Shown: positions 1 to 29,018 of the stretch, piece after piece | How the letters are laid out: every line of letters starts with the position of its first letter | Position numbering within the stretch: the first letter of the stretch is position 1 | From: Pseudarthrobacter sp. IC2-21 | GTDB lineage: Bacteria > Actinomycetota > Actinomycetes > Actinomycetales > Micrococcaceae | DNA length: 64,000 nucleotides | Assembly (NCBI RefSeq): GCF_034048115.1 | Contig: NZ_CP139145.1 | Location: 2,914,001-2,978,000 of the forward strand | Direction: 5' to 3' | The notes under the pieces: generated by a model | What the model saw: the letters and a program-made list of their open reading frames with translations, nothing else | Told to the model about the DNA's origin: nothing | The model's database searches: none | Made by a program: the position numbers and the translations under genes

Positions 1-609
1 CTGTTGCCGCTGTTTTGTGAATTCAATAGCCTCCTGAAGCACCTTCGCTGCCCGGCCGGCCGCCTCAGCGGCCCAGATGACGGCAAGCTCGCGGCGTGCT
101 TCCGCGCTCAGACTTGTCGTTCCCGGGGATGACGCCGCAAGCAAGCTGGGTGCGAAGTCCAGCGGGTTTCCCCCCTCAAAGGCGCGGACAGGGGAACCAT
201 CGGCGACTGAATCAATGATTGAGATACCGGGGACCTGGCCGAAAGGCACGAAGCCCGTTCCGTTTGGCAAGGTGCGCACCGGAACGCTCAGCGTCACCGG
301 ACCCTCCGCTTCGGCCGCGGCTACTGAATGCCGTTTCACCGCCAGGCTCGTTACCAGTGGAAGCTGAATGAGGGTCTCGCCCCACGCCCCGGCAATCTCA
401 ACGAGGTCTCTGAGGCTGGTGGAGTCCTCGTCCTCAATGACGCCAGCCAGATCCCACCCAGCGTCTCCGAGGACCTCCCAGGCAACCGGGGGCTTTCCTT
501 CAATGTACGTGGCGATGGTGGCGCCGGCCGTAGCCTTTGTCATCGCATCGCGAATCGCCTCGGCGACGGCGATACCGATTTCGCCGGCAGCTGTTTTAAC
601 CATGCTCAT
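1..609 (-). CDS. Acyl-CoA dehydrogenase, small-partner type (3' end outside window)
   Basis: The reading frame is open from an ATG at 609 to the left edge of the window (203 codons), so the C-terminal part is missing. The protein begins MSMVKTAAGEIGIAVAEAI and ends, where cut, with AAKVLQEAIEFTKQRQQ, the helix that leads into the FAD-contacting middle of acyl-CoA dehydrogenases. The first half is poorly conserved, as is usual for the second subunit of actinobacterial heteromeric FadE pairs. Its ATG overlaps the stop of the upstream acyl-CoA dehydrogenase in an ATGA, so the two are translationally coupled and probably form an alpha2-beta2 enzyme oxidising a CoA thioester. The family assignment is firm. 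Heteromer formation is inferred from gene order and the truncated view. Confidence 0.8.
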   Translation of the reverse strand, partial: MSMVKTAAGEIGIAVAEAIRDAMTKATAGATIATYIEGKPPVAWEVLGDAGWDLAGVIEDEDSTSLRDLVEIAGAWGETLIQLPLVTSLAVKRHSVAAAEAEGPVTLSVPVRTLPNGTGFVPFGQVPGISIIDSVADGSPVRAFEGGNPLDFAPSLLAASSPGTTSLSAEARRELAVIWAAEAAGRAAKVLQEAIEFTKQRQQ

Positions 610-1733
610 CGTGGCAGCCCCAGAATTCTCTCGCTAATGATGTTTCGTTGAATTTCCGAGCTGCCGGAGTAGATGGAGGCTGCCCGTGTCTCGAGGTACT
701 GCAGCCGCCAGTGTTCGACGTTGGTGGCGTCGGCTGTTTCGAGTCCTAGTTCGGCGATCTGTTGCCACAGTTCGCTCCACCAAAGCTTCAGCACGGAAGC
801 GGCCTTGAGGAACTCCGCGGAATCCTTGTCGTAGTCGATCGATTTCATGACCTGCCACCGAATGAGCTCGACGCGGGAGTCGTAGTCTTCGAGCTGCCGC
901 TGGTACTCAGGCAGATGACCGATGGCCCGCTGGAGGCTATCCATGTCAGCGCGGATCTCCACGTAGCGGCTCGCGGCTTCCACGCCGCCACGCTCGTTGG
1001 CGAGAACGGTCATGGCGACCTTCCACCCGTCGCCTTCACCGGCAACCCTGTCCTCGTCGGCCACAAACACATTGTCAAACTGGACCTCGGCGAAGTGCGT
1101 CAGTCCTGATGACTGCCGGATCCCGCTGATGGAAACCCCGGGCTGCTTCATATCCAGCAGGAACATGGTCAGGTTCTTGTGACGGGCAGCTGCCGGGTCG
1201 GTCTGGGCCAATAGCAGGCAACGGTCGGCGACACTGGCGAAGCTGGTCCATATTTTCCGGCCAGTGACAGCGTATCCGCCGTCCACTTTGACCGCACGGC
1301 ACCGGACACCTGCAAGGTCGGAGCCGGCATCCGGCTCCGAAAATCCCTGGCACCACACTTCGTCACCGTTGAGGATCTTGGGAAGGAAGCGCCCGAGCTG
1401 GTATTGCGTCCCGTGAGCGACAAGGGTGGGCGCGGTAAGAATCCGGCCGATACGCGCCAGTCCGTCAGGAGCCTGGGCTCTGCCGGCAAGGTCCGCGAAG
1501 ATCACTTCTTCGGCTACGTCGAGTCCCTGACCACCGAACTCCTTGGGCAGCGAGAGGCCAGCGTACCCTCCGCGGTGCAACTGCCGGTCCCACTCACGGC
1601 GGATCTCGTAGCCCTCCTCTTCGGTCATGACGCTGCGGTGTGTGCGCCAGCGTTCCGGGACGTTCTCTTCCAGCCATTGACGGGCGGCCTCAGCGAAGCC
1701 CTTCCGCGATGCAGTTTCAGTTTCTGTCGGCAT
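606..1733 (-). CDS. Acyl-CoA dehydrogenase (FadE-like, large-partner type), 375 aa
   Basis: FAD-dependent acyl-CoA dehydrogenase that would introduce an alpha,beta double bond into a CoA thioester. The substrate-loop region WCQGFSEPDAGSDLAG and the FAD region ITGRK-like TGRKIWTSF are clear, and the C-terminus AASIYSGSSEIQRNIISERI is the family's end motif. In that motif the catalytic Glu of medium-chain enzymes (IYEG) is Ser (IYSG), so the base must lie elsewhere or in the partner subunit. I chose the ATG at 1733 (MPTETETAS) because AAGGAAG lies just upstream. An in-frame TTG at 1760 would sit inside the operator palindrome at 1755-1770. The operator placement suggests control by the TetR protein encoded at 4396-5037. 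The gene is coupled to the acyl-CoA dehydrogenase that follows. Confidence 0.9.
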   Translation of the reverse strand: MPTETETASRKGFAEAARQWLEENVPERWRTHRSVMTEEEGYEIRREWDRQLHRGGYAGLSLPKEFGGQGLDVAEEVIFADLAGRAQAPDGLARIGRILTAPTLVAHGTQYQLGRFLPKILNGDEVWCQGFSEPDAGSDLAGVRCRAVKVDGGYAVTGRKIWTSFASVADRCLLLAQTDPAAARHKNLTMFLLDMKQPGVSISGIRQSSGLTHFAEVQFDNVFVADEDRVAGEGDGWKVAMTVLANERGGVEAASRYVEIRADMDSLQRAIGHLPEYQRQLEDYDSRVELIRWQVMKSIDYDKDSAEFLKAASVLKLWWSELWQQIAELGLETADATNVEHWRLQYLETRAASIYSGSSEIQRNIISERILGLPR

Positions 1734-1754
1734 GACTTCCTTGTCGTTAGAACT

Positions 1755-1770
1755 AACCAAACGATTGGTT
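1755..1770. promoter_or_regulatory. TetR-type operator, best match (site 1)
   Basis: AACCAAACGATTGGTT is a 16-bp palindrome that breaks symmetry only at the two bases flanking the central CG. It lies just upstream of the acyl-CoA dehydrogenase start at 1733. It is the best copy of a motif found in front of most catabolic units in this window. The layout AnCAA-4-TTGnT resembles the KstR2 operator consensus (AnCAAGnnCTTGnT, from memory). Confidence 0.75.
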
Positions 1771-1828: not shown

Positions 1829-2656
1829 TTAAACGATTGCCAGGGGGCGGACCGGAGAGCCGGTCCCCCCGCCTATCCTCAGCGGGACCGCGAGGAAGGT
1901 GAAGTCGGTGATTCCCGCCTCACCCAAAGCCTCGAGGTCCATGGATTCCATGATGGGAATTCCGTTCTCCACCAGGTTATGAACGTGCACGGGAAGGTTG
2001 ATGATCTTTGAATCAGGTTTGTGCTCGTAATTCATGGTGTCAGAACCCGTGGCGGTGATACCCCGCCGGCTTAGCCATTGAGCACCGTCCAGAGTTACTC
2101 CGGGCAATCCTGTCGACAGGCCGATGTAGCGTTCCGGGTCGTGCCAGTATTTCATCCAACCCGTCCGCACGAGGACGATTGATCCCTTCTGGGGTGCCGG
2201 CTTATCCGCGAACCAGCGCTCAAAGACCTCTGCTCCGATACCGTCGGAGGGCGTAAGGTCCCTGCCGAACAGTTTCGGCAGATTGACCAGATGGCCCCTC
2301 CCAATCATGGGCAAGGTTTCCTCAATGCTTCCAACATCCAGGCCCGCATTGCCGTCCGGCCCCGTAGCAACGCTTCTTTCGCCGTACACTTTGCCGTCCT
2401 TGGAGACGTGACCCAGGGCGTCAACGTGTGTGCCCACATGGGCTCCCATGGAGATCATTTCCATAGCCGCTGACACGCCGCCCTGGTATCCGTGGCCGCC
2501 ATGTGTCTTTGCCATGGCAAACGAGTAGGGCGGGTGGTGCGGATGGCGGGCCATGCCGTTTTCCAGTTTCACGGCCAGGTCGAAGACCCGGACCCGTCCC
2601 TGGATTTGGATGTCAATCTCCATTTCGGCGAAGCCGCCGGACCAGTTAGTCAACAT
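1829..2656 (-). CDS. Cyclase-family (kynurenine formamidase-like) metal-dependent hydrolase, 275 aa
   Basis: Member of the putative cyclase / kynurenine formamidase family. The metal motif HVGTHVDALGH is intact (HxGTHxDxxxH), so a Mn- or Zn-dependent C-N, C-O or C-C hydrolase is expected. The substrate is not predictable. In this context hydrolysis of a lactone or of a ring 1,3-dicarbonyl intermediate is possible. The ATG at 2656 (MLTNWSGG) is preceded by AAAGGA. Longer in-frame starts exist upstream, and a second ATG (MEIDIQIQ) lies about 30 bases further in. It is transcribed divergently from the MFS gene with two operator-like palindromes between them. Confidence 0.8.
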   Translation of the reverse strand: MLTNWSGGFAEMEIDIQIQGRVRVFDLAVKLENGMARHPHHPPYSFAMAKTHGGHGYQGGVSAAMEMISMGAHVGTHVDALGHVSKDGKVYGERSVATGPDGNAGLDVGSIEETLPMIGRGHLVNLPKLFGRDLTPSDGIGAEVFERWFADKPAPQKGSIVLVRTGWMKYWHDPERYIGLSTGLPGVTLDGAQWLSRRGITATGSDTMNYEHKPDSKIINLPVHVHNLVENGIPIMESMDLEALGEAGITDFTFLAVPLRIGGGTGSPVRPLAIV

Positions 2657-2759
2657 AATTCCTTTCGTTGCAGTGAATACGTAATGATGCGAAGCAGCTA
2701 CCGGCAACAGTGTGGTGACCCAGGCATGTCCGTCAAGTCTTCAGCCACGATTCAAACCA

Positions 2760-4395: not shown

Positions 4396-5037
4396 CTAGG
4401 TACTGCGGGGAGGGAGGATCGAACTCTTGATCATCTCAGTAAACGCCTGGACGGCATCCTCGGCCGGGATCTGGCTCCCTGATCTCGGCGGCCAGGTGCG
4501 AACATTGTTCAGGGCGCCCAGTACGAAACGCGTGACGAGCCTGACATCGATGTCTTCGCGGACGTCACCCTCGGTGCGGGCTTTTTCCAGGAGCTCCTGA
4601 ATGTAGTGAAGGTAGTTCCTGCTGTCTTGGCGCGCTTTCTCACGGCGGGCTCCGGTGAGGTGTCGGCTCTCGGTGAAGAAAATGTTGGCGCGTTCGACGT
4701 TGGCCAAGTGCCAGGCAGCTGACTGCTTCAGGTACTCCAGCAGCTCCTCGAGTGCGCTCGACTCCGATGCCTTGACCCGCGCGACGATCTCAGCATTCTG
4801 CTGGTGTGACTCCTCGAGGATCCGGAACAGCAGCTCTTCCTTGGAGCTGAAGTAGTGGTACAAGCTTCCCTTCAGGACCCCGACACGATCGGCAACCTCC
4901 TGAATGGTGGTTGCTGCGTAGCCGCGCTCTGACATCACCTCAACGGCGGCCGCCATGACGTTTGCGTCACGGTTGCGGCGCATCCCGTCCGACGCCGGAC
5001 TGCTCGTGGCAGTTTTAGCCGTGGCAGTTTTGGCCAT
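4396..5037 (-). CDS. TetR-family transcriptional regulator (KstR2-like), 213 aa
   Basis: The N-terminal TetR helix-turn-helix is at about residues 25-70, including TIQEVADRVGVLKGSLYHYF and SSKEELLFRILEES, the arrangement seen in KstR2-type repressors that sense CoA thioesters. The C-terminal ligand domain is about 140 residues. An alanine/threonine-rich extension precedes the DNA-binding domain. The ATG at 5037 is preceded by AAGGGA. It lies 43 bases after the CoA-transferase B gene on the same strand, so it probably ends an operon CoA-transferase A - B - tetR. It is the only regulator among the catabolic genes and the best candidate to bind the palindromes listed in this window. The ligand is unknown; a pathway CoA intermediate is likely by analogy with KstR2. 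Confidence 0.85.
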   Translation of the reverse strand: MAKTATAKTATSSPASDGMRRNRDANVMAAAVEVMSERGYAATTIQEVADRVGVLKGSLYHYFSSKEELLFRILEESHQQNAEIVARVKASESSALEELLEYLKQSAAWHLANVERANIFFTESRHLTGARREKARQDSRNYLHYIQELLEKARTEGDVREDIDVRLVTRFVLGALNNVRTWPPRSGSQIPAEDAVQAFTEMIKSSILPPRST

Positions 5038-5080: not shown

Positions 5081-5740
5081 TTAGGTTGACATGATACTTG
5101 CGGCGGTTGCATCCAGAAGTGGAATGCCGACCAGTGCTTCCAAGTCCCGGATGGACATATCGACATAAAGATCCAGGACTCGAACCCCGTCCTCGCCGAG
5201 TTCAAAGAGGGCATGATCGGTATATACGCGCTCGACGCACTCTGCACCGGTCAGCGGGTAGTCGCAGGCCGTGACCAGCTTGCTCTCACCGGATTTCGTC
5301 AGAAGGTCCATCACAACGTAAACATGCTTGGCTCCCATGGCCAGATCCATGGCGCCGCCTACTCCTGGGATTGCAGTGGGTGAGTTGGTCCGCCAGTTGG
5401 CGAGATCTCCCCGCACAGAAACTTGAAAAGCCCCCAGAACGCAGTAGTCGAGGTGCCCCCCTCGCATCATGGCGAATGAGTCGGCGTGGTGGAAGTAGGA
5501 CGACCCGGGGACCTCGGTCACGTAGATCTTCCCGGCATTGATCAGGTCTTCATCCACCTCATTGCCAGCTGCTGCCGGACCCATACCGAGCAAACCGTTT
5601 TCGGTATGAAGGATGATTTCGCGGTCATCGGGAAGGAAGTCGGCTACGAGGGTGGGTACCCCGATGCCCAGATTCACGTAGGAGCCGTCCGGTATATCCA
5701 AAGCTACCCGTGCCGCGATCTGCTGGCGTGAAAGTGTCAT
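5081..5740 (-). CDS. 3-oxoacid/3-oxoadipate CoA-transferase, subunit B, 219 aa
   Basis: Beta subunit of a class I CoA-transferase of the PcaJ/ScoB type. Conserved features are DGSYVNLGIGVPTLVADF near the N-terminus and the catalytic glutamate in LHTENGLLGMGP at about residue 47. It would transfer CoA from succinyl-CoA or acetyl-CoA to a free acid with the A subunit encoded immediately upstream (stop TAA directly followed by this ATG). The acid is unknown. A 3-oxo acid or dicarboxylic acid from ring cleavage fits the surrounding beta-oxidation genes. This is the PcaIJ/ScoAB type, not the divergent IpdAB type of steroid ring degradation. Confidence 0.9.
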   Translation of the reverse strand: MTLSRQQIAARVALDIPDGSYVNLGIGVPTLVADFLPDDREIILHTENGLLGMGPAAAGNEVDEDLINAGKIYVTEVPGSSYFHHADSFAMMRGGHLDYCVLGAFQVSVRGDLANWRTNSPTAIPGVGGAMDLAMGAKHVYVVMDLLTKSGESKLVTACDYPLTGAECVERVYTDHALFELGEDGVRVLDLYVDMSIRDLEALVGIPLLDATAASIMST

Positions 5741-6433
5741 TTATGCAATTCCCTTACTGAGTTGGCCGCTTGCCGGCACCTGAAACAGACGATCCACATA
5801 TATTCCCGGAGTTACAACGATCTCGGGGTCGATGCCTCCAAGCGGAACTATCTCATTGACCTCGACGATGGAAGTTTTTGCTGCTGCCACCATGAGGGGG
5901 CCAAAGTTCCGGGCAGTTTTGCGGTAGATCAAATTCCCCCAGCGGTCAGCCTTGAAAGCCCGTACGAGAGCAAAATCGGCGTGGAGAGCTTCCTCCAGGA
6001 CATACGATTTGCCGTCGAAGCGCTGGACTGGCTTACCTTCGGCAAGCTCAGTGCCATAGCCTGTTTGGGTGTAAAAGGCTGCGATCCCGGCCCCGGCAGC
6101 ACGGATTCTTTCGGCAAGGGTTCCCTGGGGGACCAGTTCAAGCTCTATTTGTTTGGCCAGGTACAGCTCGTCAAAGACAGTGGAGCCGATAGCCTTCGGG
6201 AAAGAGCAAATGACTTTTGCTACCCGCTTGGCTGCGAACAACTTCGCGATCGCATCGCCGCCGGCTCCGGCGTTGTTGTTGATAATGGTGAGGTCCCGGG
6301 CTCCTGTCTCGAGGAGAGCTTCGATGAGTTCCACAGGCTGCCCGGGGGGGCCGAAGCCACCGACCATCACTGTGGCGCCATCGCCAATCCCAGCCACAGC
6401 GGCTTCTGCGCTGGTCACTTCTTTGTTTATCAC
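5741..6433 (-). CDS. 3-oxoacid/3-oxoadipate CoA-transferase, subunit A, 230 aa
   Basis: Alpha subunit of the same class I CoA-transferase. The glycine-rich motif VMVGGFGPPGQPVELIEAL near residue 25 and NNAGAGGDAIAKLF are typical of PcaI/ScoA. I prefer the GTG at 6433 (VINKEVTSAEAA) because AAGGAG lies five bases upstream; another GTG at 6439 overlaps that ribosome binding site. It is the first gene of the operon that continues into subunit B and tetR, and it is divergent from the biotin-carboxylase operon across a 330-bp region with two operator-like sites. Confidence 0.9.
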   Translation of the reverse strand: MINKEVTSAEAAVAGIGDGATVMVGGFGPPGQPVELIEALLETGARDLTIINNNAGAGGDAIAKLFAAKRVAKVICSFPKAIGSTVFDELYLAKQIELELVPQGTLAERIRAAGAGIAAFYTQTGYGTELAEGKPVQRFDGKSYVLEEALHADFALVRAFKADRWGNLIYRKTARNFGPLMVAAAKTSIVEVNEIVPLGGIDPEIVVTPGIYVDRLFQVPASGQLSKGIA

Positions 6434-6535
6434 GGGCACTCCTTCGTGGCCACGGCCTGTTTCTGTTCCCCACGCCCAGATCGCTCTTAAGAACCCGTGG
6501 CGTGTCAGGCACTTAACTTGTCCTCCACTGTATCA

Positions 6536-6761: not shown

Positions 6762-7286
6762 ATGACAATCTCGCCAGGTGACATAAACAGCATCGTCAAG
6801 GCTCTGCAGGAGTCGGATTGGGACGAGGCCACGGTTGTCGTGGGGGACGTCAAGATTGCCGTTGCCCGCAACGGCATGCACGCGACGCAGCCTCCGGCTC
6901 CGGTCGATTCTGTGGTTGCCGCCGGCGAGCCGCCGGCGTTGTCATCCCCCGTTCCCGCTGTTCCGGCGCCCGCCGCCCCGGCGGCACCTGCTGCCCCAGC
7001 CGCAATACCGGCGTCCCAGGCTCCGTCGTCAGCTGAAACAGACGTGCTGGTAACGTCCCCTACGGTTGGAGTGTTCTGGAGTGCTCCTGAGCCAGGCGCT
7101 CCTCCCTTTGTCGAAATCGGCAGCACCGTGGCTGAGAATGACGTAGTCTGCATCGTCGAGATCATGAAGCTCATGTCTCACGTAGCTGCGGGAACGTCCG
7201 GAGTCATCACGGCAGTTCACGCAAAGGCCGGAGACGCTGTCCAGTTCGGCAGCCCCCTGTTTAGCATCCGTCCGGACGCGGGCTAG
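6762..7286 (+). CDS. Biotin carboxyl carrier protein (AccB-like), 174 aa
   Basis: Small biotin carrier. A helical N-terminus (residues 1-40) is followed by an alanine/proline-rich linker (about residues 45-90) and a C-terminal biotinyl domain with the attachment site EIMKLM, Lys near residue 132. The usual core is E[AS]MK[ML], so Ile replaces the small residue. The domain layout is that of an acetyl-CoA-carboxylase-type carrier, yet the carboxyltransferase two genes downstream is of the pyruvate/oxaloacetate type. It is the first gene of a five-gene operon (6762-11920). TAGGAG lies upstream of the ATG. Confidence 0.92.
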   Translation: MTISPGDINSIVKALQESDWDEATVVVGDVKIAVARNGMHATQPPAPVDSVVAAGEPPALSSPVPAVPAPAAPAAPAAPAAIPASQAPSSAETDVLVTSPTVGVFWSAPEPGAPPFVEIGSTVAENDVVCIVEIMKLMSHVAAGTSGVITAVHAKAGDAVQFGSPLFSIRPDAG

Positions 7287-7290
7287 ACCG

Positions 7291-8640
7291 ATGCGCAGAA
7301 TCCTCGTTGCCAATCGCGGTGAAATTGCGGTCCGGATCATCCGCGCCTGTTTTGACGAAGGAATGGAGAGCGTCCTGGCGGTTTCCGATGCTGACAGGAA
7401 TTCGCTCGCAGCCCGACTGGCTGATCAGGTGGTGGTCATAGGACCTGGCGCCGCATCCGAGAGTTACCTTTCGGTGCCCCGTATCATCCAGGCCGCGCTG
7501 AACAGTGATTGCGACGCCATTCACCCCGGCTATGGCTTCCTGTCCGAACGCGCAACCCTCGTCGACGCCTGCGAAGAGAATGGAATTACCTTTATCGGTC
7601 CGCCGGCATCGGTGATGCGGGAATCCGGCGACAAACTGCTGGCCCGGGCCGCCGCTGAATCTGTTGGGATCCCCACCGGAAAAGGCACGCCCGGCTTGAC
7701 GGACCTGGCCGAGGCCATTCGGGCTGCCGATGCCCTTGATGCCTATCCCCTTTTGCTGAAGGCATCCGCCGGTGGCGGTGGTCGCGGCATGACCATTGTG
7801 CGCGGCCCTCAAGATCTGCGCGAAGGGTTCATCCGCTCGAGCACCGAAGCGGAGAAGGCCTTCGGTGACGGCACCGTCTACCTCGAGCCCTACATTGAGA
7901 AGGCGCGGCACATCGAGGTGCAGCTGCTCGCTGATGCCCATGGCAACGTGTGCCACCTCGGAGAGCGCGATTGTTCCGCGCAGCGCCGCTACCAAAAGAT
8001 TATCGAGGAAGCTCCCAGCGCCGGCCTGCCCGACGCTCTCGTAGAGCGCATCAGGAGCGCGGCGGTTTCCCTAGCTAAGGCTTTGGATTATCGCGGCGCT
8101 GCCACATGTGAGTTTCTCGTTGACGTCCAGCGCGATACCTTCGTCTTCCTTGAGGTGAACGCGCGCGTCCAGGTCGAACACCCTGTGAGCGAGGCCGTGA
8201 CTGGTATCGACATTATTCGCGAGCAGATCCGCATCGCCCGGGGGGAGCCGTTGTCGTTTATGCAGGACGATGTCCAAATCCAGGGTCACGCCATCGAGTG
8301 CCGGATTAACGCTGAGGACCCCCGAAATGGATTCCTTCCATCACCGGGACTCGTTACTGAGTGGACAGTCCCTTCCGGGACCGGGGTGCGGGTAGATACG
8401 TACATGCAGGACGGAGCAACTGTCTCCCCGTTTTATGACTCACTGATCGCCAAGATCATCGTCCACGGCCGGACCCGCGAGGAAGCCATCGACAAAATGG
8501 CCAACGTCCTCCGCAAGTCGCGGGCGGTGGGGATCTCAACGACCCTCGCCCTCCAGCTCGAAATTATGAACGACACCCGGTTCCGAACCGAACCGATTAC
8601 CACCAAATGGCTCGAAGAGTCATTCCTGGCCAGCAACTAG
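7291..8640 (+). CDS. Biotin carboxylase subunit (AccC-like), 449 aa
   Basis: ATP-grasp biotin carboxylase, full length for the family. It starts with RRILVANRGEIAVRIIRAC. The glycine-rich ATP loop KASAGGGGRGM is near residue 160. EKARHIEVQLLAD and the catalytic ERDCSAQRRYQKIIEE are in place, and FLEVNARVQVEHPVSEAVTG carries the biotin-contacting Arg and the Glu/His of QVEHP. It carboxylates the biotin on the upstream carrier with ATP and bicarbonate. Only four bases separate it from the carrier gene, and the carboxyltransferase follows after 55 bases. Confidence 0.95.
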   Translation: MRRILVANRGEIAVRIIRACFDEGMESVLAVSDADRNSLAARLADQVVVIGPGAASESYLSVPRIIQAALNSDCDAIHPGYGFLSERATLVDACEENGITFIGPPASVMRESGDKLLARAAAESVGIPTGKGTPGLTDLAEAIRAADALDAYPLLLKASAGGGGRGMTIVRGPQDLREGFIRSSTEAEKAFGDGTVYLEPYIEKARHIEVQLLADAHGNVCHLGERDCSAQRRYQKIIEEAPSAGLPDALVERIRSAAVSLAKALDYRGAATCEFLVDVQRDTFVFLEVNARVQVEHPVSEAVTGIDIIREQIRIARGEPLSFMQDDVQIQGHAIECRINAEDPRNGFLPSPGLVTEWTVPSGTGVRVDTYMQDGATVSPFYDSLIAKIIVHGRTREEAIDKMANVLRKSRAVGISTTLALQLEIMNDTRFRTEPITTKWLEESFLASN

Positions 8641-8695
8641 TTCCTCCTCCCCCGCAGAGCCTCTCCGCCCGGGACCGCACCCTGATTGGACCAAT

Positions 8696-10168
8696 ATGCA
8701 CATCGATTTCGTCGACCAGACCCTGCGGGACGGTCAACAGAGCCTATGGGGTCTGCGCATGCGGGCCTTCGAGGCCGCAGGTGCCCTCCCCCATCTGGCC
8801 TCCACCGGCTTCAAAACCATTGACCTGACCGGGCCTGGGATGTTCACCGTCCTGACCCGGGACTATTTTGACGACCCATGGGATACCACTGATTTCCTCG
8901 TCGCGGGACTTCCGGGGAACACCCTCAGGGCCGGCATGCGCACTTACAGCGTCATGGGGTTCGCCCACGCACCGGAATCCATCATCGATCTCTGGGTCAA
9001 GACCCTGATCAAGCACGGGGTTACCAGCTTCTGGCTTTACGATGTGGCCTACGATATGCCCACGATGAAGCGGCTCGTTGACGTGGTGGTCGCTGAAGGC
9101 GGGGAAGCTGTTCCTACCGTTATGTACGGGCTGACCAGTGTTCACGGCGATGATTTCTTCGCTGACAAGGCACGTGAAATGGCGTCCTGGAACGGTGTCT
9201 CAACCGTCGAGCTGGAAGACGCTCCCGGAATCCTCACCCCGGACCGGGCTAAAACCCTGCTTCCAGCGCTGAAGAAAGCCGTCGGGGACGCGACTCTCGA
9301 ACTACACTTCCATGCCAGCACGGGCCAGGCCCTGCACAACTACATCATTGGCGTCGAGGCCGGCATCAACGTTCTTCACACCGCTTCGCGGCCCATGGCC
9401 AACGGCGTCTCACTGCCCTCCACCGAGGCCATGGTCAACATCATCGAACACATGGGCCACACCCATTCGCTCGACAAGAGCAAGTTTGCGCCGGTCGCAG
9501 ATCACTTCACCCGCACCGCGGAGGAAGGTGGCCACCTGCTCGGTGTCCCAGCCGAGTACGACCCCCGGGTATATGATCACCAGCTGCCTGGAGGAATGAC
9601 CGGAACCCTCCTGCGCCAGCTTGGACAGCACGGCATGACAGACCGGTTCCCTGAAGTCCTCGCTGAAATCCCCCGAGTGCGAATCGACTTCGGCGAGCCG
9701 ATCATGGCGACACCCTTCTCACAGTTCGTCGGAATCCAGGCAGTCCTTAACATCATTACCGGGGACCCCTACAGCATGAGCCCCGACGAAGTCGTTCACT
9801 ATCTCCTTGGCCACTACGGCCCGATCTATGGCCCGGTTAACCAGGACGTCAAGGACCGCATCCTATCCTCACCTCGTGCCCGCGAAATTGCCGAAAAATG
9901 GGAACGCCCCAACCCCAGCCTCAGCGAAATCCGAAGCAATTTCCCTTCCGGCATCTCCGATGAAGAACTTCTCCTTCGGTTCATGAACTCCAAGGATGAG
10001 GTTGACAAGACCCTGGCACGGGGACCGGTCCGCAAAGACCCACGCCGTGCAGCAGACGCAATGGTCGCCAACATTGTCGATCTTGTCGCCGAGAAGAGCC
10101 GCGCTACGTCCCTTTCACTCGAGACTCCCCCCTTCAGCCTCAACCTCCGCAAGAAGGGCACGATATAG
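8696..10168 (+). CDS. Carboxyltransferase of the PycB/OadA/transcarboxylase-5S family with altered active site, 490 aa
   Basis: TIM-barrel carboxyltransferase plus the C-terminal PYC_OADA region. The first strand reads DQTLRDGQQSLWGLRMR, where pyruvate carboxylases have DTTxRDAHQS. The zinc ligands D (DQT) and HxH (ELHFHASTG) are kept. The segment that normally carries the carbamylated, zinc-binding lysine (IKDMAGLLTP) reads LEDAPGILTP, so Lys is replaced by Glu. The GxTS segment that holds the proton-shuttling Thr of pyruvate carboxylase reads ANGVSLP. The C-terminal QLPGGMTGTLLRQL and the PYC_OADA core are present. It takes carboxybiotin from the carrier, but the acceptor is probably not pyruvate. 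A ketone or a CoA-bound keto compound is my inference from the crotonase and cyclase that follow. Confidence 0.85.
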   Translation: MHIDFVDQTLRDGQQSLWGLRMRAFEAAGALPHLASTGFKTIDLTGPGMFTVLTRDYFDDPWDTTDFLVAGLPGNTLRAGMRTYSVMGFAHAPESIIDLWVKTLIKHGVTSFWLYDVAYDMPTMKRLVDVVVAEGGEAVPTVMYGLTSVHGDDFFADKAREMASWNGVSTVELEDAPGILTPDRAKTLLPALKKAVGDATLELHFHASTGQALHNYIIGVEAGINVLHTASRPMANGVSLPSTEAMVNIIEHMGHTHSLDKSKFAPVADHFTRTAEEGGHLLGVPAEYDPRVYDHQLPGGMTGTLLRQLGQHGMTDRFPEVLAEIPRVRIDFGEPIMATPFSQFVGIQAVLNIITGDPYSMSPDEVVHYLLGHYGPIYGPVNQDVKDRILSSPRAREIAEKWERPNPSLSEIRSNFPSGISDEELLLRFMNSKDEVDKTLARGPVRKDPRRAADAMVANIVDLVAEKSRATSLSLETPPFSLNLRKKGTI

Positions 10169-10169
10169 C

Positions 10170-10994
10170 ATGACCTTTCCCACTTACTCCGCGATCGTCC
10201 TGGAACTGGAAGGCCACGTCGCGCAAATCACTCTAAACCGGCCAGAGCGGCTCAATGCACTCAACGACAAGCTCCTTGACGAGCTCGACGCCGCCTTCGA
10301 CTACCTTGCCGGCGTCGAGCACCGGGCAGTAGTGATCAAGGGTGCCGGCAGGGCTTTCTCGGCAGGCTACGATGCAGGCTCCGACTCGAAAGAAATAGGC
10401 TACGCCGATGAGCGCAGCGCCGTTGAGGACCGTGATCGGCAGCTCCGCAACATCGAAATTTTCACCAAGATATGGCGCCACCCACTTCCGGTCATCACAC
10501 AGGTTCACGGGTACTGCATGGCAGGCGGCACGCAACTGTGCATCTTCAGCGATATCACTATCGTGGCCGAAGACGCAGTCATCGCCGCTTCCCCAGCCCT
10601 ACCGATTGGCGGGGGGTTCATTTCTCCAATCTGGGCCACACTTGTCGGGCCTAAACGCGCAAAACTCATGTCCTTTGACGCTGGCCACCGAATTGACGGC
10701 CGGACAGCGGCGCAATGGGGATGGGCAACCGAAGCTGTGCCCTCCGACCAGCTTGACGAGTACGTACGTGACCTGGCAGTCTCAATTAGCCGCACGCCGG
10801 CCTCCATCCTAAAATTGAAGAAGGAGGCCGTGAACCGGGTGGCCGAATTGCAGGGGCTTATCGCGATCAGCCGAATGGGAGCCGAAACGGACGCCCTGTT
10901 GCATCTGACCCCCGAAATCCAGAAGCTGCAGGCATCGATCAAAGAACGCGGCCTCAAAGGTGCCATCTCGCACTTCAACGAAGTGGGACTGTAA
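10170..10994 (+). CDS. Crotonase-superfamily protein without hydratase glutamates, 274 aa
   Basis: Crotonase fold with both oxyanion-hole segments, GRAFSAGYDAG and HGYCMAGGTQL. The two glutamates used by enoyl-CoA hydratases are absent: the PExxLG segment reads SPALPIGGGFISP, and the second position, in a helix reading AKLMSFDAG, is not Glu. A simple hydratase is therefore unlikely. Crotonase-type C-C hydrolases (6-oxocamphor hydrolase, BadI) are possible models because this gene follows a carboxyltransferase and precedes a cyclase-type hydrolase. I chose the ATG at 10170, one base after the carboxyltransferase stop. The next gene overlaps its stop (TAATG). Confidence 0.85.
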   Translation: MTFPTYSAIVLELEGHVAQITLNRPERLNALNDKLLDELDAAFDYLAGVEHRAVVIKGAGRAFSAGYDAGSDSKEIGYADERSAVEDRDRQLRNIEIFTKIWRHPLPVITQVHGYCMAGGTQLCIFSDITIVAEDAVIAASPALPIGGGFISPIWATLVGPKRAKLMSFDAGHRIDGRTAAQWGWATEAVPSDQLDEYVRDLAVSISRTPASILKLKKEAVNRVAELQGLIAISRMGAETDALLHLTPEIQKLQASIKERGLKGAISHFNEVGL

Positions 10995-11920
10995 TGACCG
11001 AAGCAGAGTTCTGCCAATACGACGATCTTCCGCTCCTTGCCCCGCTGGGTATCCGCACCTCATGGGGCAAGCTCGACGGATCACTTGGAACCCTGGATCT
11101 GCTTGCTGACACGGCCGTCCGGGAGGCCGCACAATCGGTAGCCAGCGGCCAGGTTTTATCCCTCTCTCTTGAGAGTGACCTCCTTGACCCGCCCTTGTTT
11201 GGCAGGCGGCCGACCGTCCATACAGTAAGTGAAACCGGACGAAACATATTTGAGGATGAACTCGATCAGTTCAATCCTCAATCCAGTTCCCAGCTGGATG
11301 GACTGCTGCACGTTAGAGCCCGGGAATACGGGTTCTATGGCGGCATCACCGACCATGATGAAGCACGCGATGCGCTCGGCATGCACCATTGGGCGCAACG
11401 GGCTATCGTTGGCCGCGGGGTTCTGGTGGACGTCCGTGGGCACTACGGCCAGGAGTGGAACCCCTTCGAGGAGCGGACCCTCGGAGTCGAGGAATTAACG
11501 AGCATCCTGGAAGCCCAAAATGTCACCCTCGAGCCGGGAGACATCCTCTGTCTGCGTTTTGGTTGGGTTGCCGAATATCGGGCGCGACAGATCCGCAGAG
11601 AAAACCTGACGTCAGCAGGTGACGAATTCGCGGGAATTGCCTCGACGGACGATATGGTCCGCTTCCTGTGGAACTCGCAAATTGCAGCAGTCATGGCTGA
11701 TAATCCTGCAGTCGAGAGCGCCCCTGGGAATCCCAAAAACGGCTCACTGCACCGCAAGCTGATCCCCGGTCTCGGATACGCCCTCGGGGAACTGCTCGAC
11801 ATGGACAAGTTGGCCGAAGCATGTCATGCACGCGGCCGGTTCGATTTCCTGTTCGTCGCAGCGCCCCTGAACCTTTACGGGGCAGCAAGTTCAACAGCAA
11901 ATGCGCTGGCCATCCTCTGA
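10994..11920 (+). CDS. Cyclase-family (kynurenine formamidase-like) hydrolase with divergent metal motif, 308 aa
   Basis: Putative cyclase-family protein, longer than the one at 1829-2656. Where that protein has HxGTHxD, this one has SSQLDGLLHVRAREYGFYGG, so the first His is Ser or Gln while the Asp and the later His remain. The downstream LEPGDILCLRFGWVAEY and the HRKLIPGLGYALGELLDMDKL region are typical of the long cyclase subfamily. It is the last gene of the biotin-carboxylase operon, its ATG overlapping the crotonase stop by one base. It would hydrolyse a ring or ester made by the preceding enzymes. Function is inferred only from family and context. Confidence 0.75.
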   Translation: MTEAEFCQYDDLPLLAPLGIRTSWGKLDGSLGTLDLLADTAVREAAQSVASGQVLSLSLESDLLDPPLFGRRPTVHTVSETGRNIFEDELDQFNPQSSSQLDGLLHVRAREYGFYGGITDHDEARDALGMHHWAQRAIVGRGVLVDVRGHYGQEWNPFEERTLGVEELTSILEAQNVTLEPGDILCLRFGWVAEYRARQIRRENLTSAGDEFAGIASTDDMVRFLWNSQIAAVMADNPAVESAPGNPKNGSLHRKLIPGLGYALGELLDMDKLAEACHARGRFDFLFVAAPLNLYGAASSTANALAIL

Positions 11921-12784: not shown

Positions 12785-12801
12785 TAACCTTAGCGCGGCT
12801 C

Positions 12802-13763: not shown

Positions 13764-14636
13764 TCAGGAGGCCCAATCGAAGAAGCCCCTGCCAGCCTTT
13801 CGCCCAATCTCACCCCGCGCCACTTTGTCCACCAAAATCTGAGGTGGACGGAAGCGTTCACCGAGCATGGATTGAAGGTATTCCGCGATGCCCAGCCTGA
13901 CGTCAAGGCCTACGATGTCCGTGGTCCGGAGCGGCCCGGTATCGTGTTTATAGCCCAGCACCATTGCTGCATCGATGTCCTCGGCAGATGCAACACCCTC
14001 TTCCACCATGCGCATGGCCTCCAGTGCAACGGCTACACCCAGGCGCGAGGAGGCAAAACCCGGGGCGTCATGAACGACAACGGGAGTCTTGCCTAGTGCT
14101 TCCACCCAGCCCTTTGCTGTGGCTGCCAATTCAGCAGATGTCTTCTTGCCCAGAACCACTTCGATGAGGGCTGACGCTGGTACGGGGTTGAAAAAGTGCA
14201 TGCCTAGGAAGTTTCCCGGTCGGTTGAGCTCTGCTGCCAAAGTGTCGACTGACAAGGATGAGGTGTTGGATGCGAGATAGGCGTTGTCCCCCAACTGCTC
14301 TTCTACCGCCAGGAGGGCGGGCACTTTTAGTTGAAGGTCCTCCGGAACTGCCTCGATCACCAGGCTGCACCCTGCAAAGGAGGAATACTCCGTTGAGACG
14401 CTGAGCCTGGACAGCACATCAGCTGTCGACGACCCGAGGGTTCCGCGGGCAGCAGATTTTTCCACGGCCTCGGTGACGCGTTGCCGTGCGGCGGAAGCGG
14501 CTTCCTCGTCGCGTTCCACTATTCGCACGTCAGCGCCTTTTGTCAGAAAGGCATGGGCAATGCCCGCGCCCATTCGGCCGCCGCCAAGGACGCCCACCAA
14601 GGCGGGCAGGCCGGAAGGAGGGAAGGTGTTGTTCAT
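13764..14636 (-). CDS. 3-hydroxyacyl-CoA dehydrogenase, 290 aa
   Basis: NAD-dependent 3-hydroxyacyl-CoA dehydrogenase of the short, HbdA-like type. The N-terminal Rossmann motif GVLGGGRMGAGIAHAF and the acidic end of beta-2 (VRIVERDEEAA) mark the NAD site. ASNTSSLSVDTLA and GMHFFNPVPASALIEVV carry the conserved catalytic Ser/His region. VHDAPGFASSRL leads into the C-terminal dimerisation domain, and the length is standard. The start ATG at 14636 overlaps the stop of the upstream enoyl-CoA hydratase, so it is the third gene of a coupled thiolase - hydratase - dehydrogenase operon that performs the last three steps of a beta-oxidation round. Confidence 0.93.
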   Translation of the reverse strand: MNNTFPPSGLPALVGVLGGGRMGAGIAHAFLTKGADVRIVERDEEAASAARQRVTEAVEKSAARGTLGSSTADVLSRLSVSTEYSSFAGCSLVIEAVPEDLQLKVPALLAVEEQLGDNAYLASNTSSLSVDTLAAELNRPGNFLGMHFFNPVPASALIEVVLGKKTSAELAATAKGWVEALGKTPVVVHDAPGFASSRLGVAVALEAMRMVEEGVASAEDIDAAMVLGYKHDTGPLRTTDIVGLDVRLGIAEYLQSMLGERFRPPQILVDKVARGEIGRKAGRGFFDWAS

Positions 14637-15421
14637 GAGTTCTTCTTTCCAGTGGTCTTGTCGGATTTTTTGTCGAGGAACTTTTGCATCCGGTCGAATT
14701 TGGCCTTGGATTCGAAGAGAATGCCCTGCGCAAGCTGATCGATCAGCGGGTGGGCCTCCGCCGGGGCGTGGAACACGGACTTGGTGATCCTCACCGCCAG
14801 CGGGTCCTGGCGGCCGATCCGGTCCGCCAGGTTGTGGGCAGCGTCCATCAGCTCCGGCGCCTCATGGATCTCCGTGATCAGGTTGGCAGCCAGTGCATCC
14901 TCTGCCCGGAGCACCAGGCCGGCGAGTAGGAGCTGCTTGGCAAGCGGTTCGCCCACCAGTTCCCTGAGCCGCCAGGTTGCCCCGGACGCTGCCAGGATGC
15001 CCAGTCCGGTCTCGGGGTTGCCGATCCGGACGCTGGGCGTACCGATCCGGAAGTCCGCAGCGCAGGCGAGCTCGGCCCCGCCGCCGAGGCAGTAGCCGTC
15101 CAGCGCCGCGATGACGGGCATCGGCAGCTTCGCGATCCGCACGAAAATGGTGGAGTTGATGCCCTGCAGCGCGTCGTCCCGGCGCCGCTCGCGCAGCTGG
15201 GCGATGTCCGCACCGGAGGCGAAAACACCGTCCACGCCGGCGATGACCAGGATTTTGGGGTTCTGTTCCAGCGCGGCGCAGACCACGTGCAGTTCATCCA
15301 CCATCTGCTGGTCGATGGCGTTACGGACGTCCGGCCGGTTGAGGAGGACCACCACGCGGTCCTCACGTTCTTCGACCAGGAGGGTGCTGAAATGTTCGGT
15401 GGCGAGGTCCGGGGCGGACAC
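14633..15421 (-). CDS. Enoyl-CoA hydratase/isomerase family protein, 262 aa
   Basis: Crotonase-fold protein. Oxyanion-hole segments are FASGADIAQL and DGYCLGGGAELACAADF. The first catalytic Glu is present in GNPETGLGILAASG. The second position lies in EPLAKQLLLAG and is Gln or another non-acidic residue, so hydratase or isomerase activity are both possible. I chose the GTG at 15421 (VSAPDLATEHFS): the thiolase stop TAG and this GTG share one base (TAGTG). Earlier in-frame starts lie inside the thiolase gene. It works with the thiolase and the 3-hydroxyacyl-CoA dehydrogenase in the same operon. Confidence 0.88.
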   Translation of the reverse strand: MSAPDLATEHFSTLLVEEREDRVVVLLNRPDVRNAIDQQMVDELHVVCAALEQNPKILVIAGVDGVFASGADIAQLRERRRDDALQGINSTIFVRIAKLPMPVIAALDGYCLGGGAELACAADFRIGTPSVRIGNPETGLGILAASGATWRLRELVGEPLAKQLLLAGLVLRAEDALAANLITEIHEAPELMDAAHNLADRIGRQDPLAVRITKSVFHAPAEAHPLIDQLAQGILFESKAKFDRMQKFLDKKSDKTTGKKNS

Positions 15422-16650
15422 TATACGCGCTCCAGCAGCATCGCAGTGCCCTGGCCCACGCCGATGCACATGGTGGCGAGGCCGAATTTGGCGTCCTCAC
15501 GTTCCATCCGTCCCAGGAGGGTGATGGCGATCCGTGATCCGCTGGAACCGAGGGGATGCCCCAGGCTGATGGCGCCGCCGTCGTTATTCACGATCTCCGG
15601 ATCCAGGCCAAGCCGCCGCATGGTGGCAAGCGACTGGGTGGCGAAGGCTTCGTTGAGTTCGACGACGCCCAGGTCGCCCCCGCTCATGCCGCTGCGCTTG
15701 AGTACTTTCTGGGTGGCAGGGACCGGGCCGATGCCCATGATCTCGGGTTCGCAGCCGGCCGAAGCACCGTCAATGATCCGGGCCCGGGGTGTCAGGCCCA
15801 GCCGTTCAATGGCGGCCTCGGACGCGACGATGATCGCGGACGCACCGTCGTTGAGGGTGGAGGAATTGCCGGCCGTGACCACCGAACCGCCGGAGACCAC
15901 CGGGCGTAAGCCGGCGAGGACCTCCAGGGTGGTCCCGGCACGCGGGCCCTCATCGGTGTCCACGACGGTCTCGGATTTGCGGGTCTTCACGGTCACGGGC
16001 ACGATCTCGTCGGCGAACCGTCCCGCGGCGATGGCGGCGAGGGACCGTTCGTGGGAGCGGACCGCGAACGCGTCGGCGTCCTCACGGGTGATGCCGTCCA
16101 CCCGGGCCACTTCCTCGGCGGTTTCGGGCATCGAGTAGGTCATCTTGCCGTCTCTGGCCAGCTCACCCTTCTGGAACTTGGGGTTGGCGAACCGCCAACC
16201 GATGGAGGTATCGAAAATCTGTCCCGGCTTCGCGAACGCCGTGGCGGGCTTTTCCTGGACCCAGGGGGCTCGGCTCATGGACTCCACCCCGCCGGCGATC
16301 ACGATGTCCGCGGCGCCGGACTTGATCATCTGACTGGCCTGGATGATGGCGCTCAGCCCGGAGGCACACAGCCTATTGACCGTGATCCCGGGGATATGGA
16401 GGGGCAGCCCTGCCAGGAGGGTAGCCATCCGGGCCACATTCCGGTTCTCCTCACCCGCGCCGTTGGCGTTGCCCAGGATCACCTCATCGATGCTGTCGGG
16501 ATCCAGCCCCGCACGGGCCACCAACTCCCGGATCACCAGCGCCGCCAAATCGTCCGGCCGGACCGAGGACAACGCCCCGCCGTACCGCCCCACCGGGGTG
16601 CGGACACCTCCAACAAGGAAAGCCTGCGGTCCTGCGGTAGCTGACACCAT
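15421..16650 (-). CDS. Acyl-CoA thiolase (3-oxoadipyl-CoA/acetyl-CoA acyltransferase type), 409 aa
   Basis: Complete thiolase of the PcaF/PaaJ/FadA group. The nucleophilic Cys is in NRLCASGLSAI at about residue 90. NEAFATQSLA, GGAISLGHPLGSSGSRI (catalytic His) and the second Cys in CIGVGQGTAML are all intact. It cleaves a 3-oxoacyl-CoA with CoA to release acetyl-CoA, or a succinyl-CoA-type product if the substrate is a dicarboxylate. The ATG at 16650 has AAGG eight bases upstream. It is the first gene of the coupled three-gene beta-oxidation operon. The upstream region has a palindrome AACAA-CA-TTGTT at about 16670-16681 and, further away, the recurrent operator at 16882. Confidence 0.93.
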   Translation of the reverse strand: MVSATAGPQAFLVGGVRTPVGRYGGALSSVRPDDLAALVIRELVARAGLDPDSIDEVILGNANGAGEENRNVARMATLLAGLPLHIPGITVNRLCASGLSAIIQASQMIKSGAADIVIAGGVESMSRAPWVQEKPATAFAKPGQIFDTSIGWRFANPKFQKGELARDGKMTYSMPETAEEVARVDGITREDADAFAVRSHERSLAAIAAGRFADEIVPVTVKTRKSETVVDTDEGPRAGTTLEVLAGLRPVVSGGSVVTAGNSSTLNDGASAIIVASEAAIERLGLTPRARIIDGASAGCEPEIMGIGPVPATQKVLKRSGMSGGDLGVVELNEAFATQSLATMRRLGLDPEIVNNDGGAISLGHPLGSSGSRIAITLLGRMEREDAKFGLATMCIGVGQGTAMLLERV

Positions 16651-16881
16651 GGAAACACCCTTCACGCGATAAACAACATTGTTTTGTCAACGGCCACTCC
16701 CCCAGATGTCCGCCACCTACGGCTGCGCGGCAAAAAGCCTCCAGGACTCGCCTCCAGGCCAATCAGAGAGCCAGTCGCTGGACCACCAATGTCGGATTGC
16801 TGGAACGTTCACCGCATTGGCAAGGCAGCCGGAGATCAGAAGCAGCAGGCCATCGACTAGTAAACCGAGCCTAGCATGTCA

Positions 16882-17612: not shown

Positions 17613-17797
17613 TGGTTAGCTGCAACTTGCGACCATGAGATGCATGTCACGACGGCAGTTCACCACCTACTGTCACGTTATCGTGCCAACTCTTTCAGAT
17701 TCGGGTCTAGGTCAGGATGAGTCTCCGACACAGACGGTGGTCTACCGCAAGGCCATGCACACCTACAAGCCAGAAATCACTCACCGAGGAGATAGAT

Positions 17798-18985
17798 TTG
17801 TCCCCCAGTATGCTCTTTACCCCCGTCCAGCTCCGCGACGTAACGCTGAAAAACAGAATCGTCATCTCACCTATGTGGCAGTACTGCGGAGAGAAGGGTC
17901 ACGCAACTGATTACCATCTGATGCACTACGGACAACTCGCCGAAGGCGGCCCCGGTCTCGTAATGCAGGAGGGCACCACGGTCGATAAGCGCGGCAGAGG
18001 AACGCCGGGCGACTTGGGCATCTGGGATGACGAGTTTATTCCTGGCCTCAAGCGCATCGTGCAACTTATCAAACGCAATGGTTCAGTGCCTGGCATTCAG
18101 TTGATGCATCCCGGACGGAAGGTAATGGAACGGGCCCCATGGGACGGCAGCGAACCGCTGAGTATGGAGGAAATGGAGGGCCTGGATCCGCACGAATGGG
18201 ACAGGATAGCTCCAAGCGTGACACCGCTAGCGATTGCACCCGGGCACCCGTTGCCTCGTGAAATGACCAAGGCAGATATCCGCCGGATAGTCGAGGCCTT
18301 TGTGTCGGCAGCCTCCAGGGCAGACAAAGCCGGCTACGAAGTACTCGAGTTGCATGCAGCTCACGGATACCTCATCCATTTGTTCCTGTCGGAAGCGACC
18401 AATCTCCGCACTGATGAGTATGGGGGAAGCTTCGAAAACCGAGCCCGTTTCCTTGAAGAAATCGTCGAAGGCGTGCGCAGCGTCCTTCCTCAGTCCAAGC
18501 CGTTGCTGGTACGACTCTCCTGCGTTGATGGATCCAACTGGTCCATAGGGGATACTGTCACGCTGGCCCGGCGGCTGAAGGCCCTGGGCGTCGATATGAT
18601 CGACTGCTCGATGGGAGGAATCAGCAAGCACGTCGGAACGGACCGCCGCAGCGCATACGCTTATCAGGCTTCGCTCGCGGCGACCGTGAGGAAGGAGGCC
18701 ATGATCATGACCAACGCCGTCGGATTGATCGTCCACGCACACCACGCCGAGCACCTCATCGCGGAAGGCATGGCCGACACCATTGGCATCGCGAGGGAGG
18801 CTATTTACAACCCCCACTGGCCAATAGATGCGGCGCACAAGCTTAGTGCCGACCCTGAATTCAGTATGCTTCCGAAGCGACAGGCATTCTGGTTCCATTA
18901 CCGCAACCAAGGTATGGAGAAATTCCTGCCATCTACGCACACTTCTGACGTGATCCCCGGACTACGGGAGAGTCTGTCACCGTAA
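17798..18985 (+). CDS. Old Yellow Enzyme family NADH:flavin oxidoreductase, about 395 aa
   Basis: FMN-dependent ene-reductase-type TIM barrel. QLRDVTLKNRIVISPMWQYC marks the start of the barrel. IQLMHPGRK, ELHAAHGYLIHLFLS (substrate-binding His pair region), RTDEYGGSFENRARFLEEI and VRLSCVDG follow in family order, and GIAREAIYNPHWP ends the FMN site. In YqjM-type enzymes the flavin-tuning residue in PMC is Cys; here it is Trp (PMW). The preferred start is the TTG at 17798 because AGGAG lies six bases before it; the in-frame ATG at 17717 would add 27 non-conserved residues. It would reduce an enone or a related unsaturated carbonyl. Two operator sites precede it. Confidence 0.88.
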   Translation: MSPSMLFTPVQLRDVTLKNRIVISPMWQYCGEKGHATDYHLMHYGQLAEGGPGLVMQEGTTVDKRGRGTPGDLGIWDDEFIPGLKRIVQLIKRNGSVPGIQLMHPGRKVMERAPWDGSEPLSMEEMEGLDPHEWDRIAPSVTPLAIAPGHPLPREMTKADIRRIVEAFVSAASRADKAGYEVLELHAAHGYLIHLFLSEATNLRTDEYGGSFENRARFLEEIVEGVRSVLPQSKPLLVRLSCVDGSNWSIGDTVTLARRLKALGVDMIDCSMGGISKHVGTDRRSAYAYQASLAATVRKEAMIMTNAVGLIVHAHHAEHLIAEGMADTIGIAREAIYNPHWPIDAAHKLSADPEFSMLPKRQAFWFHYRNQGMEKFLPSTHTSDVIPGLRESLSP

Positions 18986-26457: not shown

Positions 26458-26469
26458 GACTTTTAGTCC

Positions 26470-28983: not shown

Positions 28984-29018
28984 AGCGGGGGCGACCTTTC
29001 GTATGGCAACTAGAAGCG

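Follow-up and report, generated by a model that had tools for sequence, protein, structure and literature searches.

In pyruvate carboxylase, oxaloacetate decarboxylase and transcarboxylase, the carboxylated lysine (carboxylysine) of the metal site is regarded as invariable. A locus of Pseudarthrobacter sp. IC2-21 raises the question of what becomes of such an enzyme, and of its reaction, when a glutamate stands at this place. The locus lies within a stretch of 64,000 nt (contig NZ_CP139145.1, positions 2,914,001 to 2,978,000 of the forward strand), which was analyzed as a whole and is referred to here as the window. On its plus strand, an open reading frame (8696..10168; all coordinates are positions in the window) encodes a carboxyltransferase (CT) of 490 aa with the PycB/OadA fold. 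The best reading of this gene and its neighbors, which we consider moderately probable, is a biotin-dependent carboxylation that turns a ketone into a beta-keto acid, followed by CoA transfer and C-C cleavage.

The active site of the carboxyltransferase

The CT combines the two parts typical of the family of PycB, OadA and transcarboxylase 5S, namely a TIM barrel and a C-terminal PYC_OADA funnel domain. It exceeds the cut-offs of PF00682 (HMGL-like, 45 bits) and PF02436 (PYC_OADA, 97 bits), 437 residues of its predicted model are matched to M. flagellatus PycB (5ks8) at 2.8 Å, and its identity to PycB and to OadA (2nx9) is 31-32%. The metal ligands of this family are an Asp, two His residues and the carboxylated Lys, and it is in the last of these that the CT departs from its relatives. 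The segment ELEDAPGILTP aligns without gaps with AIKDMASLLTP of M. flagellatus PycB, ALKDMAGILTP of V. cholerae OadA and ALKDIAALLKP of 5S, and E174 (codon 9215..9217, plus strand, as are all codons given here) therefore occupies the place of the carboxylysine. In L. lactis pyruvate carboxylase (LlPC), this place is K703 by alignment, and in R. etli pyruvate carboxylase (RePC) it is presumably K718. The other ligands are recognized by alignment in D12 (8729..8731) and in H204 and H206 (first and third codons of 9305..9313), the counterparts of Asp534, His732 and His734 in the ligand list for LlPC in PMC9581989. In this respect, the analysis agrees with an initial annotation of the sequence, which had described the exchange of the carbamyl-lysine for Glu together with the retention of the remaining metal ligands and of the PYC_OADA domain. 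Glu is found at position 174 in 37/37 alignment rows (the window CT and 36 homologues) and in 238 of 240 homologues, which were the best 120 of 2006 and the best 120 of 4133 as listed from capped candidate sets; the other two have Ala and Gly. A sequencing slip is therefore ruled out, and alignment and conservation together indicate that the Lys-to-Glu change is real.

Catalytic residues were found at their usual places. T339 and S342 (first and last codons of 9710..9721), each present in all 240 listed homologues, align with Thr867 and Ser870 of LlPC, which are located at the carboxyl transfer site (PMC9581989). Their roles as catalytic Thr and biotin-contacting Ser follow this source and PMC5895798, in which the Thr of RePC (T882) is called catalytically essential; T882 is probably the same residue as T339 and Thr867. 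A placement of this catalytic Thr at position 303, where it would have changed to Gly, was considered and rejected, as the LlPC alignment and PMC9581989 place it at the conserved T339. When the genome's own Pyc was aligned with LlPC, T867, S870, K703, H732, H734, R606 and D534 fell on the expected letters. H206 is kept in 240/240 listed homologues and H204 in 212, with Gln in the other 28, while Arg82, the equivalent of the pyruvate-contacting Arg606 of LlPC, is kept in all 120 nearest listed homologues. Two further signs named in the initial annotation are less telling. The replacement of a GxTS Thr by Val holds as a difference in letters from the genome's single-chain Pyc (ANGVS instead of AGTTS) but not as a diagnostic sign, because the same place reads EGASLP in PycB, GTYGHP in OadA and LGPGHN in 5S. 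As for RDGQQS, its Gly is common to authentic PycB (RDGHQS), and the His-to-Gln exchange is the only difference.

A broader set of 149 sequences was made up of the window CT, the Pyc of the same genome, two solved references out of three and 145 further sequences. As 79 genome loci were found by patterns derived from the Glu alignment, the sample leans toward Glu; nine pairs are at least 98% identical, some being the same gene taken twice, and all counts refer to related sequences rather than independent events. Residue 174 is Glu in 82, Lys in 57, Tyr in four, Ala in two, Gly in two, and Cys and Thr in one each. Since R11, D12, Q15, H206, T339 and S342 are kept in 82/82 Glu rows, and R82 in 72/82, the site of the Glu branch is, judged by its aligned residues, otherwise complete. 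A second column co-varies with E174: G303 (9602..9604, in PGGMTGT), the position of Ser or Thr in most Lys-type CTs, corresponds to Gly in 78/82 Glu rows and to Ser/Thr in 53/57 Lys rows. Exceptions occur both ways, so the two changes are separable.

In 121 rows filtered to less than 85% identity, the pair of His ligands is complete in 50/50 Lys rows, in 56/61 Glu rows and in 2/10 rows with another residue, counts of related rows that do not amount to a statistical test. Such a pattern would be expected if Glu still supports a metal and the site degenerates once the acid is lost. Most likely, E174 holds a divalent metal together with D12, H204 and H206, and a contact between Glu and metal would fit the comparative data. 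Sequences with other residues were also encountered. In four CT-like proteins (L064, L071, L073, L081), Ala, Gly or Cys is found at the carboxylysine place and the first His is changed to Tyr, Ser, Leu or Met; the metal may have been lost in these proteins. The CT of Novosphingobium resinovorum pSA1 (L087:10001-11449) has Tyr in place of the carboxylysine, and its second His is replaced by Asn; L096 and L098 resemble it.

Relation to ketone carboxylases and other families

The position of the Glu-type CTs was examined in a quick IQ-TREE run with masked key columns and SH-aLRT support, without bootstraps. After removal of partial loci (L036, L049, L058, L065, L080), of the 5S fragment, L062, L097, L104 and L118, and then of rows of at least 85% identity, 121 of the 149 rows were kept. 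PycB, OadA and Pyc form the outgroup (SH-aLRT 100), and the main Glu branch (59 Glu, 4 Tyr, 1 Ala) is supported at 98. Its sister (SH-aLRT 85) consists of 20 rows, all with Lys, and contains the Hpe/Xcc-type CTs. Glu is also found in L072 and in a group formed by L060 and its relatives L063 and L066; by parsimony, it would have arisen three times, in the main branch and in these two. The initial annotation had set a Lys at this position and a clustering with authentic pyruvate carboxylases against its own proposal; the position holds Glu, and PycB, OadA and Pyc lie outside the branch.

HpeCBA is a three-component enzyme that carboxylates phospho-acetophenones/ketones with one ATP (PMC9618137). 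A biotin carrier, a biotin carboxylase and a CT resembling PycB form separate proteins in HpeCBA of Rhodococcus rhodochrous GD02, in XccBCA of Aromatoleum aromaticum EbN1 and in the Acv carboxylase of Sphingobium SYK-6. The same holds for the window, where the CT is preceded on the plus strand by an AccB-type biotin carboxyl carrier (6762..7286; PF00364, 63.6 bits; biotinyl Lys in EIMKLM) and an AccC-type biotin carboxylase (7291..8640; PF02786, PF00289, PF02785). The known systems turn a ketone into a beta-keto acid, with later CoA activation and C-C cleavage, as is proposed here for the window, and they share its patchy spread. The window CT lies not inside the Hpe/Xcc-type branch but in its sister, the branch members being assigned by context and not by published sequences. 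L127 and L128, two members of the Lys branch, come from one genome. In L127, carrier, biotin carboxylase, CT and HAD hydrolase follow in a row, an order that fits CAI06288, 06287 and 06286 of XccBCA (PMC8461187). L128 shows carrier, biotin carboxylase and CT, then, after one gene, proteins of the PEP-utiliser and PPDK_N families; whichever of L127 and L128 is XccBCA, its CT appears to have Lys. In L129, which belongs to the Lys branch, genes for PEP-utiliser, PPDK_N, carrier, biotin carboxylase, CT and HAD proteins occur in hpeHICBAD order. Subunit labels differ between these sources: XccBCA denotes carrier, biotin carboxylase and CT (PMC8461187), whereas hpeB is the CT in Table 1 of PMC9618137. 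The masses given there, 57.4 kDa for HpeA and 49.3 kDa for HpeB, fit labeling in the style of PMC8461187.

The idea that Hpe/Xcc-type CTs carry Glu was discarded, as those assigned carry Lys. These CTs (L127, L128, L129 and relatives) have Lys and lack Arg82, which is replaced by Thr, Ser or Pro in 21/21 CTs of the branch, whereas the window CT has Glu and Arg82. The Hpe route needs the kinase HpeHI and the phosphatase HpeD. PPDK_N had no match in the window, its six matches all lying elsewhere in the genome, and a phosphatase was not noticed on reading the window's frames, where no phosphatase profile search was made. CoA is supplied by a ligase in the Hpe, Xcc and Acv systems and would come from a 3-oxoacid CoA-transferase in the window. 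The Glu-type branch is little studied. Other relatives are further removed. PycB and OadA have Lys, PGGM-x-[ST]-N in place of PGGMTGT and other gene company, and transcarboxylase 5S, which works without a biotin carboxylase, likewise keeps the Lys. DRE-TIM acyltransferases and HMG-CoA lyase (PF00682) share the TIM barrel with Asp and HxH and match the CT weakly in sequence; they have no PYC_OADA domain and no biotin partner.

Apart from its own genome, the CT was found in 0/38 relatives at E 1e-100 and in 0/395 genomes of the phylum at E 1e-120, with up to three candidates scored per genome. The base composition of the cluster is not distinct within the window and therefore gives no support for recent transfer.

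Gene neighborhood and the proposed route

The genes for AccB, AccC, CT, ECH1 and CycB follow one another almost without gaps on the plus strand (6762-11920), and to their left, on the minus strand, lie ScoA, ScoB, a TetR-family regulator, CycA and acyl-CoA dehydrogenases. ScoA (5741..6439) and ScoB (5081..5740, with ENG motif) exceed the curated cut-offs for the two 3-oxoacid CoA-transferase subunits, with 340 bits for TIGR02429 (cut-off 128.5) and 273 bits for TIGR02428 (cut-off 243.6), respectively. Carboxylation of a ketone yields a beta-keto acid, and such acids usually receive CoA from an enzyme of the 3-oxoacid CoA-transferase type. ECH1 (10170..10994; PF00378) has a crotonase fold and is a candidate hydrolase of beta-keto C-C bonds. 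At two positions that we take to be those of the catalytic hydratase glutamates, 15/15 rows (the window and 14 others, one gene taken twice) have Gln and one of Ala, Val or Met, the window protein having Gln and Ala. Lacking both glutamates, ECH1 should therefore not be a hydratase, and beta-ketoacyl-CoA cleavage would be its simplest role. BadI/MenB-like chemistry was considered and set aside: of 68 NCBIfam matches, 25 were listed, with MenB models in 12th and 19th place and without BadI. The motif PIGGGF presumably lacks the MenB Asp. Two proteins belong to PF04199 ("putative cyclase," with the fold of kynurenine formamidase and isatin hydrolase): CycB (10994..11920, 47 bits), whose sole solved match is 5ibz, and CycA (1829..2707, minus strand, 88 bits), which matches 5ibz, kynurenine formamidase and isatin hydrolase. 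The TetR-family regulator (4396..5037; PF00440, 67.7 bits) recurs beside the cluster. The large acyl-CoA dehydrogenase subunit (606..1760, minus strand; PF02771/PF02770/PF00441) has pimC_large as its best NCBIfam relative, under cut-off. Its partner, an acyl-CoA dehydrogenase-like subunit cut by the window start (1..609, minus strand), had no Pfam or NCBIfam match itself and clusters with L009:18699-19595, which matches IpdE2 under cut-off (85 bits). Also on the minus strand are a 3-hydroxyacyl-CoA dehydrogenase (13764..14636; PF02737, 180 bits) and a thiolase for the end of beta-oxidation (15421..16665; TIGR01930, 458 bits, over cut-off).

These neighbors suggest a role in ketone breakdown, and the proposal of the initial annotation that the enzyme carboxylates perhaps a ketone is in keeping with the Hpe/Xcc-type sister branch and the nearby CoA-transferase. 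In the proposed route, AccC would use ATP and bicarbonate to load the biotin of AccB with CO2, and the CT would pass the CO2 to the carbon beside the carbonyl of a small-molecule ketone or, possibly, of a keto acid, to give a beta-keto acid. The divalent metal at E174, D12, H204 and H206 would polarize the ketone oxygen and T339 would shuttle a proton to biotin. ScoAB would then transfer CoA onto the beta-keto acid and ECH1 would hydrolyze the beta-ketoacyl-CoA, with ring opening in the case of a cyclic ketone; acyl-CoA dehydrogenases, hydroxyacyl-CoA dehydrogenase and thiolase would finish by beta-oxidation. The substrate is likely a cyclic ketone or a keto acid.

The gene company, which recurs in part beside related actinobacterial CTs, was surveyed at 18 close Glu loci (CT identity at least 60%, 7 kb on each side, strict identity thresholds). 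Neighboring genes came from a simple, purpose-made gene caller and were scored by similarity to the window proteins, so that distant counterparts near Lys loci may be missed. Homologues were found for TetR at 14 loci (at least 40% identity), AccB at 13, AccC at 12, ECH1 and CycB at 11 each, CycA and ACAD at 10 each, ScoB at eight and ScoA at seven. None of ScoA, ScoB, CycA, CycB, ACAD or strict ECH1 was found near nine Lys loci with 7-kb flanks. A Baeyer-Villiger monooxygenase and a zinc alcohol dehydrogenase lie near the CT of L015, luciferase-like monooxygenases near those of L022 and L023, and a curcumin-reductase-like enzyme near that of L008. We infer from this company a catabolism of cyclic or terpenoid-like ketones and alcohols. 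Some stretches have a CT without AccC, for example L018 beside L017 (Saccharopolyspora spinosa). Two CT paralogues lie close together on one contig in L013, L014/L020, L017/L018, L025 and also L023/L024; one AccB-AccC pair was seen in the stretches of the first four and none for L023/L024. Such pairs may reflect a diversification of the CT around a common biotin carboxylase. Deeper Glu loci (L039, L040, L041, L046) contain a recurrent kinase gene family, recognized as PPDK_N with PEP-utiliser in L040 and L046, the two that were run. L040 also has genes for an AMP ligase, a thiolase and a tyrosine phosphatase, and R. oxybenzonivorans has a similar annotated set with a Glu-type CT. By analogy, the logic of the Hpe route is reached in these loci with a Glu-type CT. 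On plasmids of Sphingobium yanoikuyae YC-JY1 (L088:4936-10321) and Pseudomonas putida YC-AE1 (L089:4874-11216), a Lys-type carboxylase is accompanied by genes for a HAD hydrolase and for an ATP-binding protein of Tm-1-like type, which may amount to an Hpe-like route that uses a different kinase; both records annotate the CT as "biotin carboxyl carrier protein."

Further features of the window lie outside this set. An old-yellow-enzyme family reductase (17717..18985, plus strand; PF00724, 229 bits) is a candidate upstream enone reductase, and its gene was not found near the 18 close relatives. The window also has a luciferase-like monooxygenase (30823-32001), and these two genes enter into the reading of cyclic or terpenoid-like substrates given above. 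An ABC importer (25417-30401, minus strand), consisting of a periplasmic binding protein and a fused ATPase-permease that clusters with a gene beside the CT locus L008 of Leucobacter sulfamidivorax, may be the uptake part of the pathway. Beside the cluster, an IS3-like transposase pair was read from the frames (20531-21693, minus strand). A TrwC-type relaxase with a TraI-like helicase-associated domain (49527-53102, plus strand) marks a mobile element next to the catabolic region. It is followed by a BREX/Pgl-type defence locus (55377-63172, plus strand) with PADLOC model scores of 1262 bits for PglW and 1703 bits for PglX, the PglX match beginning at residue 174 of the listed frame.

Weighing the readings

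Several observations weigh against a Glu-ligated metal and a ketone carboxylase. Glu is about three bonds shorter than carboxylysine, and direct ligation would therefore need a shifted metal or a water bridge; moreover, H204 is kept in 76/82 Glu rows and is Gln in the other six. The nearest characterized kind bears Lys and is just 29-34% identical to the window CT (five assigned Hpe/Xcc-type CTs), and the grouping with it is moderately supported at 85 in a quick tree. As the window has no PPDK-type kinase, its chemistry is not the unchanged Hpe route. Among the 18 close Glu loci, AccC was not found near six and ScoA not near 11. A CoA-transferase is not special to Glu types either: at L131:4785-8202, a Lys-type CT is preceded, at a distance of a few hundred bases, by two CoA-transferase genes (PF01144, 194 and 122 bits), and the pairing of carboxylation with CoA transfer may be ancient in the CT family. 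The functions of ECH1 and of the PF04199 proteins are guessed, and the part of the cluster at 12326-13686 (minus strand) looks decayed, with an acyl-CoA thioesterase in pieces in different frames (N-terminal 4HBT_3 at 13378-13686, C-terminal Acyl_CoA_thio at 12802-13239) adjoined by a crotonase of only 152 aa. To our knowledge, no activity has been established for any Glu-type CT.

It is quite possible, though on balance doubtful, that E174 is not a ligand but a general base or hydrogen-bond partner, with the metal either absent or coordinated by the Asp and both His residues in the manner of DRE-TIM acyltransferases. The shorter side chain speaks for this, as do the relatives with Y, A, G, C or T at this position and the fact that other HMGL-like TIM barrels without that Lys still bind metal; it is opposed by the preserved charge of -1 and by the loss of the His pair in most of the related rows with residues other than Glu and Lys. 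A different and rather unlikely view concerns the substrate, which would be a keto acid: PF04199 hydrolases would open a ring (lactone, amide or 1,3-diketone), Arg82 would hold the carboxylate and the CT would carboxylate the product. Arg82 is conserved in the nearest homologues and most Glu rows and missing from the Hpe/Xcc branch, PF04199 genes travel with the CT, and CycA keeps, as read from its sequence, HxGTHxD, which we take to be the metal motif of this fold. CycB, in contrast, is without the HxGTH motif, no ring substrate is known, and Arg82 could instead serve the keto oxygen or biotin. Far less probable is an ordinary two-subunit pyruvate carboxylase or oxaloacetate enzyme tolerating Glu. 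The initial annotation held that the site was unlikely to act on pyruvate, a view not sustained here, since Arg82, Gln15, T339 and S342 are all kept; this retention weakens an exclusion of pyruvate by the site, and the identity to PycB and OadA points the same way. The case against pyruvate is instead made by gene context, the CT sitting among catabolic CoA genes, and by the separate full-length, single-chain Lys Pyc of the genome. The distance to PycB, OadA and Pyc in the tree argues likewise, and neither OadB nor OadG was noticed on reading the window's frames, for which no profile search was made. A transcarboxylase or decarboxylase without net carboxylation (5S-like or OAD-like) is scarcely probable, as AccC adjoins the CT in the window and its relatives flank it at 12/18 close loci; AccC beside the CT therefore points to ATP-driven carboxylation.

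Carboxylation of a ketone thus being preferred, a broader model can tentatively be put forward as a possibility: the whole CT branch would have swapped its self-carboxylated lysine for a metal-ligating Glu, and the window member would start an aerobic route in which carboxylation, CoA transfer and a hydrolysis of the crotonase type open the ring of alicyclic ketones, in place of Baeyer-Villiger oxidation. A search of the open literature on ketone carboxylation and on changes of this lysine returned no recognized Glu form, and one on the carboxylation of cyclic ketones (menthone, cyclohexanone) nothing relevant. A natural branch without carboxylysine, its site otherwise intact, would offer a direct test of the purpose of the carboxylated lysine. 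If the gene context has been read correctly, these loci would represent an actinobacterial, ketone-carboxylating catabolic route that is absent from the open literature searched, and their CTs may be of use for adding CO2 to ketones.
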